The notes under the pieces: generated by a model
What the model saw: only the letters and a program-made list of their open reading frames with translations
Told to the model about the DNA's origin: nothing
The model's database searches: none
Origin: an alpha proteobacterium AAP81b
Lineage (GTDB): Bacteria > Pseudomonadota > Alphaproteobacteria > Sphingomonadales > Sphingomonadaceae
NCBI GenBank assembly: GCA_001295935.1
Contig: LJHX01000135.1
Location: 1-34,816, forward strand
Length of the DNA: 34,816 bases
Direction of reading: 5' to 3'
Shown: one piece after another, positions 6,032 to 33,091 of the stretch
Position numbering within the stretch: position 1 is the first letter of the stretch
Layout: each line of letters opens with the position of its first letter
Position numbers and translations under genes: made by a program

Positions 6032-6787
6032 ATGGGCCGTCGACCACATCCGAAAAACCAGGGCCAGAAGAGCCCCTTTCCTCGCCTTTACGGCCGGCAT
6101 GCCGTGTTCGCGGCGCTGGCCAACCCCGAGCGCAGCTTTCGCAAGCTGCACGTCAGCCATGAAACGGCGCGACAGTTCGAGATGCCTGCCGGCGTCACCA
6201 TCCAATATGGCGACGACCATGATCTCGGCCGGCTGATCCCCGCCGACGCGCCGCACCAGGGTTTCGTCCTCGAAGTCGAGCCCCTCGAATCGGTCTGGCT
6301 CGGCGACATCCTGGCAGCGGCGCAGGGCGATGCGAAAAAGCGCCCGATCGTCGTTCTGGACCAGGTGACCGACCCCCATAATGTCGGTGCCATCATGCGC
6401 TCGGCGCTGGCCTTTGGCGCGCGCGCCATCGTCACCCAGGATCGCCATTCGCCGGGCGAGACCGGCACCTTGGCGCGCGCGGCCTCGGGAGCGCTCGAGA
6501 AACTGCCCTGGTCGCGCGTCGTCAATCTTGCACGCGCGCTCGACGAGATCGCCGAGGCGGGCTTCTGGCGCATCGGCCTCGACGGCAGCGCCGACACCGA
6601 CATCGAAACCGCGCTTGCCGCGACGACGCCGTGCCTGGTGCTCGGCGCCGAGGGCGAGGGGCTGCGGCCGCTGACCCGCGAGAAATGCGACCAGATCGCC
6701 CGGCTGCCGATCGCCGCCGAGGTCGAGAGCCTCAACGTCTCCAATGCCGCGGCGATCGCGCTTTATGCGGCGGCGCGCCGGGGCTGA
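6032..6787 (+). CDS. rlmB: 23S rRNA (guanosine-2'-O-)-methyltransferase, RlmB/TrmH family
   Basis: This 251-residue SpoU-class methyltransferase has a trefoil-knot SAM site. The N-terminal substrate-binding domain begins near LYGRHAVFAAL (19-29). The three SpoU motifs are all present: motif 1 VLDQVTDPHNVGAIMRSAL (about 108-126) with the conserved Asn and Arg, motif 2 LVLGAEGEGLRPL (about 202-214) and motif 3 ESLNVSNAAAIALY near the C-terminus. In the family RlmB methylates G2251 of 23S rRNA; other TrmH paralogues modify tRNA, so the exact target is inference. The stop codon overlaps the start of the next gene by one base, implying coupled translation. Confidence 0.92.
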   Translation: MGRRPHPKNQGQKSPFPRLYGRHAVFAALANPERSFRKLHVSHETARQFEMPAGVTIQYGDDHDLGRLIPADAPHQGFVLEVEPLESVWLGDILAAAQGDAKKRPIVVLDQVTDPHNVGAIMRSALAFGARAIVTQDRHSPGETGTLARAASGALEKLPWSRVVNLARALDEIAEAGFWRIGLDGSADTDIETALAATTPCLVLGAEGEGLRPLTREKCDQIARLPIAAEVESLNVSNAAAIALYAAARRG

Positions 6788-7758
6788 TGCACGTCCTGCT
6801 GACCGGGTCGTCGGGCTGGCTCGGGCGGCATCTGGCGCCGCGGCTGCGCGCCGCCGGGCATAAGGTCACCGGGCTCGATGTGGCGCCGGGGCCGGACACC
6901 AACGTCATCGGCTCGGTCGCCGACCGCGCCGTCGTCGACCATGCCTTCGCATGCGGGGTCGAAGCGGTGATCCATGGCGCGGCGCTCCACAAGCCCGACA
7001 TCGCGCGCTACCCGGTGCAGGCCTTCATCGACGTCAATGTGACGGGCACGCTCAACCTGCTCGAAGCGGCGCGCGCGGCCGGGCATGACCGCTTCGTCTT
7101 CACCTCGACAACGTCGCTGATGATCGACGCCAACGTCCGCGCCGAAGCCGGCGACGCCGCGGTCTGGCTCGACGAAAGCCATGGCCCGCTCGCCCCGCGC
7201 AACATCTATGGCGTCACCAAGCTCGCCGCCGAGGGCCTGTGCCGGCTCTACGCCACCGACCATGGCCTCGCCGCCGTTGTGCTGCGGACGGGGCGCTTCT
7301 TTCCCGAGGACGACGACACCCACCGCGTCCCCGCCGGCGACAACCTCAAGGCCAATGAGTTGCTGCATCGCCGCCTGACCGTCGAGGATGCCGCCGATGC
7401 CCATGTGGCGGCCCTGGCGCGCGCCCCGGCGCTCGGCTTCGACCTGTTCCTGCTGTCGGCGCCGACGCCCTTCGCGCGCGCCGACGCCGCCGAACTCAAG
7501 CGCGACGCTGCCGTGGTCATCGCGCGCTGCTTCCCGGATGCGCCAGCGCTTTATGCAGCGCGCGGCTGGACGCTGCCGGCGAGCATCGGCCGCGTCTATG
7601 ACGCCGGCCACGCCGAACGGCGCCTGGGTTTTCGCGCCGCGACAAGCTTTGCCAAGGTGCTGGCGGCGCTACGAACCGGGGCGCCGCTGCCCTTCGCTCA
7701 TGATCCGGCGTACCAGTCGCCGGTGCTTGCCGGCGGCCTGGCTTCGGCGGTCAGCTGA
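6787..7758 (+). CDS. NAD(P)-dependent epimerase/dehydratase, extended SDR
   Basis: This 323-residue Rossmann-fold enzyme carries the extended-SDR glycine motif TGSSGWLG (7-14), the central VNVTGTLNLLEAA segment (about 84-96), the FTSTTS strand (105-110) and the catalytic YGVTK (Tyr141, Lys145). The family acts on nucleotide sugars or related carbonyl/hydroxyl substrates using NAD(P). The ATG overlaps the rlmB stop, so it is probably co-transcribed with rlmB, although no functional link is evident. Its last 8 bp overlap the 3' end of panD on the opposite strand. Substrate cannot be predicted. Confidence 0.88.
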   Translation: MHVLLTGSSGWLGRHLAPRLRAAGHKVTGLDVAPGPDTNVIGSVADRAVVDHAFACGVEAVIHGAALHKPDIARYPVQAFIDVNVTGTLNLLEAARAAGHDRFVFTSTTSLMIDANVRAEAGDAAVWLDESHGPLAPRNIYGVTKLAAEGLCRLYATDHGLAAVVLRTGRFFPEDDDTHRVPAGDNLKANELLHRRLTVEDAADAHVAALARAPALGFDLFLLSAPTPFARADAAELKRDAAVVIARCFPDAPALYAARGWTLPASIGRVYDAGHAERRLGFRAATSFAKVLAALRTGAPLPFAHDPAYQSPVLAGGLASAVS

Positions 7759-25714: not shown

Positions 25715-26398
25715 CTACCCCTGCAGGCGATAGCCGACCCCGGGCTCGTTGCGGATCAGCCGCGGCCGGGCGGGATCGTCCTCGAGCTTCTGGCGCAGAT
25801 TGCGGATGACGATGCGCAGATAATCGAGCGCGTCTTCATGCGCCGGCCCCCAGACCTCGCGCAGGATGACGGTGTGGCGGATGACGCGATCGGGAAAGCG
25901 CGCCAGTTCGGCGAGCACGCCATATTCCTTGGGGGACAGATGGACCTCGGCACCCGCGCGGGTGACGCGGCGATGAGCGAGATCGATGACGATGGCGCCG
26001 ATCTCGACGCGGTCGCTCAGCGCGCGCGCGCCCAGGCGATGCCGCAGCGCGGTGCGCAGCCGCGCCAGCAGCTCGTCGGTATCGAAGGGTTTGACGAGAT
26101 AATCATCGGCGCCGAGATCGAGCGCCGCGACCTTTTCGGCGGTGTCGGTGCGCGCCGAAACGACGAGCACCGCGGCGCCGCCGGCTTTCAGCAGCCCGAT
26201 CGCCTCGATGCCGTCGCGATCGGGCAGCCCCAGGTCGAGCAGCACGGCGTCGGGCTTGTCGATCGCCAGCGCCGACAGCGCTTCGCGGACGCTGCCGGCT
26301 TCGACGACGGCATAATCGCCGCGCGCCAGCGCGCCGCGCAACAGGCGGCGGATGGCCGAATCGTCTTCGACGACGAGGATTTTGAGGGGGGCGGGCAT
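25715..26398 (-). CDS. kdpE: Response regulator KdpE
   Basis: This 227-residue OmpR-type regulator has a receiver domain with acidic pocket Glu11/Asp12/Asp13, phospho-acceptor Asp55 (LLDLGLP), Lys103 (LVKPF), and a C-terminal winged helix (HLSPKEYGVLAELARFPDRV through RNEPGVGYRLQG). The sequence and the nearby kdpFABC make KdpE the best call. KdpE normally pairs with KdpD and switches on kdpFABC at low potassium. Here it is intact but cut off from kdpD: it lies downstream of kdpC, separated by a divergent SHOCT gene, while kdpD sits past the other end of the operon. With kdpD broken, it may be unphosphorylated or driven by another kinase; this is inference. Confidence 0.88.
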   Translation of the reverse strand: MPAPLKILVVEDDSAIRRLLRGALARGDYAVVEAGSVREALSALAIDKPDAVLLDLGLPDRDGIEAIGLLKAGGAAVLVVSARTDTAEKVAALDLGADDYLVKPFDTDELLARLRTALRHRLGARALSDRVEIGAIVIDLAHRRVTRAGAEVHLSPKEYGVLAELARFPDRVIRHTVILREVWGPAHEDALDYLRIVIRNLRQKLEDDPARPRLIRNEPGVGYRLQG

Positions 26399-26576: not shown

Positions 26577-26945
26577 ATGTTGGAAAAACGCGGTACCGGT
26601 CGCCTATTTCTGTGGGGATTGGTCTGGACAATTGTCATATGGTTCGTCGGCCTCATTCTTGCCGGGTTCGTTGCTGGGCTAATGGACCCCGCTAACGCCC
26701 AACAGGCTGGCCAGGAGATTGGTCGCGAGCTCAGCGGCCCGTTGTTTTTGTTGGCCATGGTGGTTTCGGCTGTTCTGACATACGTTGGCATCTTGCCGGG
26801 GACGCGTAAACAAGCCGACGTTCAGGCAGGTCGTGAGGCTTCGATCGACTATGCCGGCCTGGAGCGGCTCGCGGCGTTGCGGGATAGTGGCGCGCTTACC
26901 GATGAAGAGTACGCGGCGCAAAAGGCCAAGCTGCTGCGCCCCTAA
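26577..26945 (+). CDS. Small membrane protein with C-terminal SHOCT domain
   Basis: This 122-residue protein has two transmembrane helices (about 10-34 and 54-73) and a C-terminal SHOCT (short C-terminal) domain at about 93-121 (LERLAALRDSGALTDEEY then AQKAKLL). SHOCT domains are thought to mediate oligomerisation. The ATG follows GGGAAG. Its codons include more A and T than its neighbours, which may mean later acquisition. It lies between kdpE and kdpC, on the opposite strand to both, where one would expect a continuous kdp operon. No function is known. Confidence 0.8.
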   Translation: MLEKRGTGRLFLWGLVWTIVIWFVGLILAGFVAGLMDPANAQQAGQEIGRELSGPLFLLAMVVSAVLTYVGILPGTRKQADVQAGREASIDYAGLERLAALRDSGALTDEEYAAQKAKLLRP

Positions 26946-27009: not shown

Positions 27010-27600
27010 TCACGGCTTTCCACGTGCCAGCGGCCGATCGGCATCGAGCGCCAGATTCAGCGCCAGCACATTGACGCGCGGCTCGCCGAGCAGCCCGAAC
27101 AGCGGCGCCTCGACCCGTGCTGCGACCAGCGCCTCGACCTCGGCGACGCTCAACCCTCGCGCGCGCGCCACCCGCGCCGCCTGGAAGCGCGCCGCCGCCG
27201 GCGAGATGTGGGGATCGAGCCCCGACGCCGACGCCGACAGCAGGTCGCCGGGCACCGCGCCCGTCGCGCCGAGTGCCGCCTTGTCGGCGACGACGCGATC
27301 GACCAGCGCCTGCGAATTGGGGCCGAGGTTCGATCCCGACGAGGCAAGGCCATCATAGCCCTTGCCCGCCGCCGACGGCCGGCCGTGGAAATAGCCCTCG
27401 CCGACAAAGTCCTGGCCAATCAGCGCCGAGCCGATGACCTTGCCGCCGGCGTCGCGGATCAGGCTGCCATTGGCGGCGGCGGGAAAGGCCAATTGGCCGA
27501 CGCCGGTCAGCGCCAGCGGATAGGCGAGGCCGAGGAGGGCGGCGAAGAGCAGGGTCATCACCAGCGTCGGGCGCAGGGCCGAAGTCAGGTCGGAAAGCAT
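27010..27600 (-). CDS. kdpC: Potassium-transporting ATPase subunit KdpC
   Basis: This 196-residue single-pass membrane protein stabilises the KdpFABC complex and assists ATP binding. One helix lies near the N-terminus (RPTLVMTLLFAALLGLAYPL). The conserved GSALIGQDFVGEGYFHGRPS and SGSNLGPNSQALVDRV segments and LDPHISPAAARFQAARVA are all present. Length fits the family (about 190). It follows kdpB after 20 bp. No lesion is seen in it. Confidence 0.95.
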   Translation of the reverse strand: MLSDLTSALRPTLVMTLLFAALLGLAYPLALTGVGQLAFPAAANGSLIRDAGGKVIGSALIGQDFVGEGYFHGRPSAAGKGYDGLASSGSNLGPNSQALVDRVVADKAALGATGAVPGDLLSASASGLDPHISPAAARFQAARVARARGLSVAEVEALVAARVEAPLFGLLGEPRVNVLALNLALDADRPLARGKP

Positions 27601-27620: not shown

Positions 27621-29654
<2,034 letters not shown>

Positions 29655-29667
29655 GATCGCCGGTTCC

Positions 29668-31367
29668 TCAGAACAACTGGCCGCGGCGCGTCGCGACATG
29701 GTCGGCGATCGGCCCCAGCGCCAGGCTTGGCAGGAAGGTGAGGCCCCCGAGGATGAGGATGACTCCGACAAGGAGACCGATCCACAGTGGCCCGGTGGTG
29801 GGGAAAGAGCCGGCGCCGGCCGGAGCATGCTGCTTGGCGGCAAGGCGGCCGGCGATGGCGAGGACGGGGACCATAATGAAGAAGCGGCCGAGCCACATCG
29901 CCACCGCCAGCAGGCCATCGTACCAGGGCGTCGCCGCGGTCAGCCCGGCGAAGGCCGAGCCATTGTTGGCGGCTGCCGAGGTGAAGGCATAGAGGATCTC
30001 CGAGAAGCCATGCGGCCCCTTGTTGAGCGGCCCCGCCAGCCCCGCCGGGAGCACCGACGACAGCGTGGTCAGGCCGAGGATGCACAAGGGCAGCGTCGCG
30101 ATGGCGAGGACGGCTAGCTTGACCTCGCGCGCCTCGATCTTCTTGCCGACATATTCGGGCGTCCGCCCCACCATCAGCCCGGCGACGAAGACCGCGAGGA
30201 TGGCGAAGAGCAGAAAGCCATAGATGCCGGCGCCGACGCCGCCGACGATCACCTCGCCGAGCTGCATGTTGATCAGCGGGATCATGCCGCCCAAGGCGGT
30301 GAAACTGTCGTGCATGGCGTTGACGGCGCCGCAGGAGGCGGCGGTGGTGATCGCCGCGAACAGCGCCAGGCGGCGATGCCGAAGCGGACTTCCTTGCCCT
30401 CCACGTTGCCGCCGGCGAGGCCGAGCGCCTGGAGGTGGGGGTTGCCCGCGGCTTCGGCGGCGTAAGCCACGGTGACGCCGGCAAGGAACAGCAGCGCCAT
30501 CGCGGCGAGGATCGCCCAGCCCTGGCGGGTGTCGCCGACCGCCTTGCCGAAGGTCCAGGTCAGCCCGACGCCGATGACGAAGATCGACAGCATCTGGACG
30601 AGGTTGGTAAGCGCACTAGGATTCTCGAAGGGATGCGCCGAATTGGCGTTGAAAAAGCCGCCGCCATTGGTGCCGAGCATCTTGATGGCTTCCTGGCTGG
30701 CGACGGGGCCGAGACCGAGGCTTTGGGTCGCGCCTTCAAGCGTCGTCACGTCGACCGAGGCGGCAAGCGTCTGCGGCACGCCGCTGGCGATGAGGAACAG
30801 CGCATAGACGATCGAAACGGGGAGCAGCAGGTAGAGCGTCACCCGCGTCATGTCGGCCCAGAAATTGCCGATACCTGTCGCCTGGCGCCGCGCGAAGCCG
30901 CGGAACAGTGCGAAGGCGATGGCGATGCCGGTCGCCGCCGACAGGAAGTTATGGATGGTCAGCGCCAGCATCTGGGCGAGCGGCGACAGCGTTTCGCCCG
31001 AGTAGCTCTGCCAATTGGTGTTGGTGGTGAAGCTGACCGCGGTGTTGAAGGCGAGATCGGGGCTCTGCGCCGCCAGGGCGCGCGGGTTGAGCGGCAGCAC
31101 GTCCTGCAGGCGCAGCACGGCATAGGTGAACAGCAGCAGGCCCGTGTTGAAGGCGAGCATGTGAAGCGCGTAGCGCCGCCAGCCCTGATCGGCGTTCGGA
31201 TCGACGCCGGCGAGGCGGTAGAAGCCCATCTCGACAGGGCCTAGCACCGCGTGCAGCGGCGTCCGCCGGCCTTCATAGAGGACGAACAGCCAGGCGCCGA
31301 CGGGCTTGGCGAGCGCTGCCAGCAGCGCGATGAACAGCGCGATCAGCGCCCAGCCTTGCAGGGTAAT
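29668..31367 (-). pseudogene. kdpA: Potassium channel subunit KdpA, frameshifted
   Basis: KdpA is the K+-conducting subunit of KdpFABC. The N-terminal two-thirds (31367 to about 30369) carries TTNTNWQSYSGE and LGTNGGGFFNANSAHPFENP of the selectivity filters, up to [11 protein letters not shown]. The frame then fails at 30367-30368: one base is missing in what is normally a Ser/Ala codon pair. The correct protein resumes in the next frame ([20 protein letters not shown]) and continues to the stop at 29668, including the [12 protein letters not shown] filter. Restoring one base gives about 566 residues, the normal length. There is also no ATG, GTG or TTG at the 5' end: the codon where Met is expected, just before TLQGWAL, is ATT, with GAGG 5 bp upstream. 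Sequencing error is possible for the frameshift. Confidence 0.85.
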
Positions 31368-31374
31368 GGATGCC

Positions 31375-31464
31375 TCAGAAGCGTTCGGGGCGAAGCAGCG
31401 CCGCGACGAGATAGACGAGCAGCCCGGCGGCGGTGACAGCGGCGAGAATGAGATCGATCGCCAT
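31375..31464 (-). CDS. kdpF: Potassium-transporting ATPase subunit KdpF
   Basis: This 29-residue peptide reads MAIDLILAAVTAAGLLVYLV followed by AALLRPERF. A single transmembrane helix with the C-terminal RPERF is the signature of KdpF, which stabilises the KdpFABC complex in the membrane. It ends 7 bp before the ATT where kdpA should begin and starts 3 bp after the preceding tiny ORF, so it is translationally linked to both. No lesion is seen. Confidence 0.93.
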   Translation of the reverse strand: MAIDLILAAVTAAGLLVYLVAALLRPERF

Positions 31465-31467
31465 GGC

Positions 31468-31551
31468 TCAGGCGCCGTCGCACAGGCGGACAAAGGCGAG
31501 CGTCAGGGCGAACAGCCCGGCGACGACGGCAAGCCAGACAAGATCGAGCAT
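31468..31551 (-). CDS. Tiny membrane ORF upstream of kdpF
   Basis: This 27-residue ORF encodes one hydrophobic helix: MLDLVWLAVVAGLFALTLAF followed by VRLCDGA. AGGAG lies 8 bp before its ATG, a better ribosome-binding site than that of kdpF, and its stop is 3 bp from the kdpF ATG. It is the first gene of the operon. It resembles KdpF in size and hydrophobicity but lacks the RPERF end. Small helical ORFs in front of kdpF occur elsewhere, usually unannotated; a role as a second accessory peptide, or only as a leader for coupled translation, is inference. Confidence 0.65.
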   Translation of the reverse strand: MLDLVWLAVVAGLFALTLAFVRLCDGA

Positions 31552-31715: not shown

Positions 31716-33091
31716 ATGCCCGGCGACCGCCCCGATCCCGACGCCCTGCTCCGCGCCGCGCGCCGCGAAGGTCGCGGCCGGCTGAAGATCTTCCTCGGCG
31801 CGGCGCCGGGGGTCGGCAAGACTTTCGAGATGCTCCGCGAGGGCGCCGAGCGGCTGAAGGCCGGCGAGGATGTTGTCATCGCCATCGTCGAAACCCACGG
31901 CCGCGCCGAGACCGAGGCGCTGGTGACGCCCTTCGAAGTCATCCCGCGCCGTAGACACGCCTATCAAGGCCAAACGCTCGCCGAGATGGACCTCGACGCC
32001 GTGCTGGCGCGGGCGCCGACCCTGGCGCTGGTCGATGAGTTCGCCCACAGCAACGCGCCGGGAAGCCGCCATCCCAAGCGCTGGCAGGATGTCGAGGAAC
32101 TCCGCGACGCCGGCATCCATGTCTATACGACGCTCAACGTCCAGCATGTCGAAAGCTTGGGCGATGTCGTCGCCAGCTTCACCCGCGTCCGGGTGCGCGA
32201 GACGGTGCCCGACAGCGTCTTCGACGATGCCGAGATCGAAGTCGTCGACCTGCCGCCCGACGAGCTGATCGAGCGGCTGAAGGCCGGCAAGGTCTATATC
32301 CCTGCCGAGGCGAGCCGGGCGCTCGACCGCTTCTTCTACAAGGCCAATCTCTCTGCCTTGCGCGAAATGGCGCTGCGGCGCGCGGCGCAAAGCGTCGACC
32401 TCGCCATGCTCGAGCACCTCGACGCCAGCGCGCTGCCCGGCACCTTCGCCGGCGGCGCACGCCGCTGACCGCGGTGTCGGCGGCGATCGACGCGCTGGCC
32501 GCCGAGCACGACACCGCCGACACGGCCACGGCGCGCGGCGAAGTCGCGCGGCTGAAGCGCTTCCTCGACAATCTTCTCGACATGGTGCGGATCGATTCGG
32601 GCGCGCTGGTCATCCGCCCCGAACCCATCGACCTGACCGACGCCGTCGCCAGCGCGGCGCACGATCTGCGCGATCTGCTAGCGCGCCACAGGATCGACCT
32701 CGCCGTGCCGCCGACGCTGCCGTTGGTTTCGGCCGACCCCGGGCTGCTGCATCACATTCTCATCAACCTGATCGGCAACGCCGCCGTCCATGGCGCCGAG
32801 ACGGGCGCCATCACCCTCATCGGCGATCGGCGCGGCGACATCGTCACCCTGGCGGTGCGCGACACCGGGCCGGGGTTGGCGCCGGGCAGCGAGCGCCGCA
32901 TTTTCGAGACCTTCGCGCGCGGCGCGGGCTCCGATCGCCACGGCGGCAGCGGGCTGGGGCTGGCCATCGCCAAGGGTTTCGCCGACGCCATGGGGCTGGC
33001 GCTGACCGCCGCCAACCACCCCGATGGCGGCGCCGAATTCACCCTGGCCTTTCCCGTCCGCACGCCGCCGCGCGCCGCGGCGGCGCACTGA
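31716..33091 (+). pseudogene. kdpD: Sensor kinase KdpD with internal deletion
   Basis: KdpD senses low potassium and phosphorylates KdpE. The N-terminal KdpD domain (31716-32455) is good: Walker A GAAPGVGKT (28-36), DEFAHSNAPGSRHPKRWQDV and TTLNVQHVESL. It ends at about residue 245 with LPGTFAGG. In the next frame, from 32456, the kinase core follows with RTPLTAVSAAIDAL, N box ILINLIGNAAVHG, G1 VRDTGPGL and G2 GSGLGLAIAKGF, to the stop at 33091. Intact KdpD is about 890 residues. About 430 residues are missing: USP domain, four membrane helices, GAF domain and the H-box His. The junction also shifts frame, so the N-terminal half stops at 32466-32468. The C-terminal half could start at GTG 32474 but would lack the histidine. 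Confidence 0.88.

Follow-up and report, generated by a model that had tools for sequence, protein, structure and literature searches.

Loss of the middle of kdpD and a one-base loss in kdpA point to a probably inactivated Kdp potassium-uptake unit in a Sphingomonadaceae genome

Introduction

The KdpD domain was described by Silberberg and co-workers as an atypical serine kinase (PMC11018627). In vitro, residues 1–230 of E. coli KdpD alone phosphorylate KdpB at S162, more strongly than the full protein does at equal amounts. The adenine pair of the E. coli domain is W39/R190, with the Trp helping to hold ATP (PMC11018627). Short KdpD proteins (KdpD/Usp, family NF038185) occur naturally in Deinococcus and cyanobacteria; they contain the N-terminal KdpD domain but no histidine kinase (PMC11018627, PMC5716572). 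In Francisella tularensis SchuS4 both kdpE and kdpA are pseudogenes, so that a single unit has lost part of its regulator and pump genes (PMC6584805).

Here we describe a kdp unit in a stretch of 34,816 nucleotides, hereafter referred to as the window, which is one whole contig (G000:C41) of the draft genome of alphaproteobacterium AAP81b (3.45 Mb, 207 contigs). The unit shares its gene order with full-length KdpD loci of the divergent type found in Sphingomonadales, represented by its closest relative L041, in which kdpD likewise faces away from kdpA. Unlike L041, the window lacks 1273 bp of kdpD, with the remainder out of frame, has a broken kdpA and carries a SHOCT gene between kdpC and kdpE. 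The natural short KdpD proteins resemble the kdpD remnant in the window in having a KdpD domain without a histidine kinase, but they keep the Usp domain (PMC11018627, PMC5716572), and the window fragment falls below the NF038185 cut-off. The E. coli KdpD-NTD construct (residues 1–230) covers nearly the same protein extent as this remnant and, like it, keeps Walker A and B; that protein, however, was made and assayed with an intact pump (PMC11018627), whereas kdpA in the window is broken and any activity of the fragment is putative. In Francisella, regulator and pump genes are also partly lost together, but other genes are hit: kdpD is present in SchuS4 and is listed as a pseudogene in LVS (PMC6584805).

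Results

The kdp unit occupies the right end of the window, and the end of kdpD lies 1.7 kb from the contig end. Its order is kdpE, a SHOCT gene on the opposite strand, kdpC, kdpB and kdpA on the minus strand, followed by kdpD facing away on the plus strand. The features are as follows.

25715–26398, minus strand: kdpE response regulator, intact (domain match and motifs)
26577–26945, plus strand: SHOCT-domain gene that separates kdpC from kdpE and is read from the opposite strand (domain match)
27010–27600, minus strand: kdpC, intact; start taken at the methionine of MLSDLT
27621–29654, minus strand: kdpB, intact, with TGES, DKTGT and GDGTND; start taken at the methionine of MTAHTT
29668–31493, minus strand: kdpA, broken into two frames where one base has been deleted, near 30366/30367; Pfam KdpA match 2–323 above ~30369 and 325–547 below ~30366
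31716–32468, plus strand: kdpD 5′ fragment of 250 aa, a complete KdpD N-terminal domain of the serine-kinase type, ending with TGA at 32466–32468
32455–32457, plus strand: deletion junction with at most 3 bp (GCG) common to both ends; 1273 bp missing relative to L041, from comparison with relatives
32456–33091, plus strand: kdpD 3′ fragment, the DHp domain from just after the H-box His and the ATP-binding domain, with the stop at 33089–33091

An earlier sequence-only reading held that kdpD had lost its middle, that its N-terminal domain had been fused to the kinase core in a different frame and that the first half met TGA at 32466. The junction and the stop were both found as described: the N-terminal domain (31716–32456) gives way at 32456 to the kinase core, which is read in another frame. 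The frame from 31716 contains the complete KdpD domain according to Pfam (PF02702, profile positions 2–210 of 210, E = 7.7e-92, 306.9 bits) and ends with residues LPGTFAGGARR before the TGA. Its Walker A motif, LGAAPGVGKT (G-X5-GKT), is identical in 35 of 35 aligned relatives, and Walker B (VDE) is retained in LALVDEFAHS. The residue after GKT, at the position of E. coli W39, is Phe in the window and also in all 35 relatives.

The second frame opens at 32456 with RTPLTAV and matches Pfam HisKA from profile position 14, plus HATPase_c. It contains the NLIGNA, DTGPG and GSGLGL motifs of the ATP-binding domain. The phospho-acceptor His of the H-box is absent, the frame starting after the HDL position. 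The frame is open upstream as far as 32039; a possible restart codon is GTG 32474, with the TGA of the first frame 5 bases upstream. When the two pieces were scanned apart against NF007793 (KdpD sensor histidine kinase), scores of 325.2 and 125.2 bits were obtained, both below the cut-off of 1123 bits; against NF038185 (KdpD_non_kinase) the N fragment scored 282.1 bits (model positions 3–232 of 373; cut-off 550 bits). The PF02702 match is the only one genome-wide in G000, and no further kdpD was found there.

The size of the loss was determined by comparison with 80 loci from named genomes (the best 80 of 360, hence not a random draw). The spacing between two marks, the codon aligned to residue 249 of P0001 and the RTPL motif, was measurable in 79 of them, L104 being cut by a contig end. 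It ranged from 1251 to 1281 bp and was a multiple of three in every measured locus. In the window they overlap by 7 bp; thus, 1273 bp are lost relative to L041 and the frame is shifted, in agreement with the ~1.3 kb proposed earlier. The R/K-TPL motif follows the residues HDL in 77 of the 79 loci and HDF in one; the remaining locus, L046, which was first measured one codon off, has HDLR at the H-box. Since HDL or HDF directly precedes R/K-TPL in relatives, the phospho-acceptor His has been lost from the window, and the proposed loss of histidine autophosphorylation is supported.

Pfam scans of the missing stretch in two relatives (L041 and L025) revealed only the DUF4118 transmembrane domain and the start of HisKA. 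DUF4118 is found in both of these relatives and is absent from both window pieces. Of the parts listed as lost in the sequence-only reading (USP, transmembrane, GAF and the His), the transmembrane part and the His are indeed missing; the names Usp and GAF for the rest of the stretch come from the literature (PMC11018627), not from the scans. With the His, the transmembrane part and the input parts gone, the histidine kinase is predicted to be unable to work, and as judged from sequence the histidine kinase activity of KdpD is gone. The stronger claim that the protein cannot phosphorylate itself holds for histidine only: in E. coli the domain that survives here acts on its own as a serine kinase (PMC11018627), and the serine-kinase arm of the N fragment may survive in unregulated form.

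The breakpoints could be placed closely by means of conserved codons. In all 79 loci the residue that follows the N-side break is Glu (68) or Asp (11), which places A at the second codon base, where the window has C. On the C side the codon before R/K encodes Leu or Phe, with T at the second base, where the window has G. These bases limit the sequence shared by the two ends to at most 3 bp (GCG, 32455–32457). Such a length is not beyond chance, and the suggestion that a GC microrepeat favored the deletion is not upheld; we rejected a microhomology-driven deletion as unproven.

A search of the G000 assembly for the missing middle listed one match, of 19 bits and 28% identity. The same query recovers the whole stretch in six of seven congeners and remnants in the seventh (G015). 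The possibility that the middle lies on another contig of G000 was rejected, as no convincing match was seen in the assembly.

One open kdpD frame of at least 868 aa is present in 77 of the 80 loci; one locus is broken (L063) and two are cut by contig ends (L049 and L104). This excludes the alternative, raised earlier, that the halves are always separate proteins. The N-terminal domain of the window is 87% identical to that of L041, and the C part is 70–73% identical.

The account of the damage given in the sequence-only reading is correct for kdpD as read but incomplete, as kdpA carries a frameshift too and kdpC is parted from kdpE by a SHOCT gene. The kdpA product is the K+-conducting subunit of the pump. 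The kdpA lesion shows up in three ways; in one of them, an alignment with five relatives, a single base of kdpA is missing in the window alone and present in all five. The kdpB, kdpC and kdpE genes are open, with family matches over nearly the whole profile or with motifs retained. The kdpC–kdpE intergenic gap, in which the SHOCT gene lies, is 611 bp, whereas the match ends lie 12–167 bp apart in 32 relatives that share the layout, and no match to the SHOCT protein at E 1e-6 was seen in the 44 loci searched.

As a control for reading-frame quality, 25 non-kdp frames, picked by codon composition and covering part of the window, were scanned; 19 had a Pfam match and six had none. The best Pfam domain is nearly whole in one frame in 18 of the 19. 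The other, GSDH (18272–20122), matches profile positions 112–261 of 332 and is open over 616 aa.

Two kdp layouts were found among the 80 loci: kdpD is divergent from kdpA, with kdpE after kdpC, in 35, and kdpD is in line in 44; the layout of L056 was not placed. In a tree of the N-terminal domain the window adjoins L041 (support 0.81) among divergent-layout loci, and one clade (support 0.93) contains the window, all 35 divergent loci and L056. The kdp unit of the window thus belongs to the divergent-kdpD kind. In contrast, in the six congeners with whole kdpD the gene is in line after kdpC. It follows that the unit may have been acquired from outside or may be a survivor of an older type.

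A KdpA match is present in eight of 24 genomes of the genus (seven of 21 among the more complete ones). KdpA is whole in six of the eight, broken in the window and in pieces in G015. In the latter congener (L119, G015:C207) kdpA, kdpB, kdpC and kdpD are eroded by several internal losses, far more than in the window; remnants of kdpC and kdpD run together, and kdpE, near the contig end, is seen in part only. Hence kdp is dispensable in the genus. G000 encodes Kup in one intact frame, and its genome gave no match to TrkH.

The age of the lesions was assessed by a coarse drift test. For each gene we counted how many alignment columns invariant in all other sequences are broken by the window, and the count was repeated for each relative. 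Each gene was represented by 33–36 sequences, the window among them, out of at most 36 (35 divergent loci and the window); sequences that gave no match, or that covered less than 85% of the length of the window piece, were left out. The window breaks 1 of 124 invariant columns in the N piece and 1 of 49 in the C piece of kdpD, 1 of 131 and 2 of 138 in the two kdpA pieces, 3 of 426 in kdpB, 0 of 60 in kdpC and 1 of 85 in kdpE. In each gene the rate of the window is equalled or exceeded by at least five relatives (5 of 34 for kdpB, 9 of 34 for the kdpD C piece). No relaxed constraint is seen in the kdpD remnants by this test, both pieces being within the range of relatives, and relaxed constraint was rejected as proof of pseudogene status because no fragment shows accelerated change. 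Since no drift is visible, the lesions would be either recent or in part not real: the pattern fits recent loss of kdp function or, for some lesions, sequence error.

Discussion

We consider it likely that the window carries a recently inactivated Kdp potassium-uptake unit, an ordinary kind of event in which a dispensable potassium system is lost. In the proposed course of events an internal deletion of ~1273 bp took the transmembrane/input part out of kdpD together with its phospho-acceptor His and left the remainder out of frame, and a separate one-base loss split kdpA; both changes are present in the sequence as read. The ends of the deletion, with at most 3 bp in common, suggest illegitimate recombination. 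The SHOCT gene, which lies between kdpC and kdpE, probably arrived later. The combined kdpD and kdpA lesions would leave KdpE without a cognate kinase and the cell unable to make the KdpFABC pump. The cell would then presumably depend on Kup.

If so, annotation calls for caution: a genome may list kdpB, kdpC, kdpE and “kdpD” and yet, by sequence, have no working Kdp. The locus is also a small case of pump loss in its genus, with kdpA not seen in 16 of the 24 genomes.

The most serious alternative, which we hold to be unlikely but far from negligible, is that an assembly or sequencing artefact or a mixed population is at work, and that the source strain, or most of its cells, has intact kdpD, kdpA or both. 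The draft state of the genome, with its 207 contigs, the position of kdpD only 1.7 kb from a contig end and the lack of drift in the fragments are what would be expected in this case, and in another genome, G030, kdpA, kdpB, kdpC and kdpD are broken many times in a way that looks like sequence error. Yet the missing middle is on no other contig of G000, and the 3 bp or less shared by the deletion ends are probably too short for collapse of a repeat or of the assembly graph by a short-read assembler. Moreover, of the 19 other Pfam-matched frames of the window, 18 span their domain unbroken and the last is an open frame. The kdp indels of G030 itself were taken as probable draft errors rather than decay.

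Recent inactivation of the whole unit also has to be weighed against loss of the histidine kinase arm alone, with the N fragment persisting by itself as an unregulated serine kinase that keeps the pump switched off by phosphorylating KdpB. The in vitro activity of E. coli KdpD 1–230 on KdpB S162 (PMC11018627) gives this a precedent, and in the window the 250-aa frame spans the whole KdpD domain, with Walker A and B and the TGES motif of KdpB intact. Against it, the sensing parts are gone, the conservation of the N fragment is no higher than relatives predict, and the residue at the position of W39, which in E. coli helps to hold ATP, is Phe, though this is also so in 35 of 35 relatives. KdpE is kept, yet close to 95% of KdpD proteins in species with KdpE are reported to have a histidine kinase domain (PMC11018627). 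Above all, kdpA is frameshifted, leaving no working pump to regulate, and for this reason we regard such a surviving kinase as improbable. It would be just as improbable, in our judgment, that the deletion made a tandem serine–histidine kinase into a bare unregulated serine kinase which locked KdpB off and so freed kdpA to decay; the locus would then be a naturally arisen counterpart of the KdpD-NTD construct, at an initial stage of Kdp dismantling. Were the bare KdpD domain made, the strain would let the recently described serine-kinase arm be studied in a natural setting without its sensor.

We find it hardly credible that the two fragments form a working two-chain KdpD, through restart at GTG 32474 or −1 slippage, in the manner of the split KdpD-N and sensor kinase of Deinococcus: split versions do exist (PMC5716572, PMC11018627), the TGA at 32466–32468 lies 5 bases before the GTG and no stop interrupts the C frame back to 32039, but phospho-transfer to KdpE is not expected from a C part without the H-box His, transmembrane or GAF part, the layout occurs in 0 of 80 loci, and no slippery heptamer was seen on inspection by eye.

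In a wider draw of the family, a KdpD domain was found in 110 of 397 genomes (including that of the window) at 113 listed places. By our count 105 of the 113 are in frames of 868 aa or longer. The other eight fall short of this and belong to G000, G030, G008, G428, G274, G240 and, twice, G318; those of G274 and G240 are close to contig ends and may be cut. In G008 (L120, contig C89, ~6611–7039) a 187-aa frame contains a partial KdpD domain (profile positions 2–153, ~32–35% identity) in a genome without a KdpA match. In L063, from Sphingomonas sp. Ant H11, the kdpD of an in-line kdp unit is broken mid-gene by frame changes and has an open frame of 527 aa.
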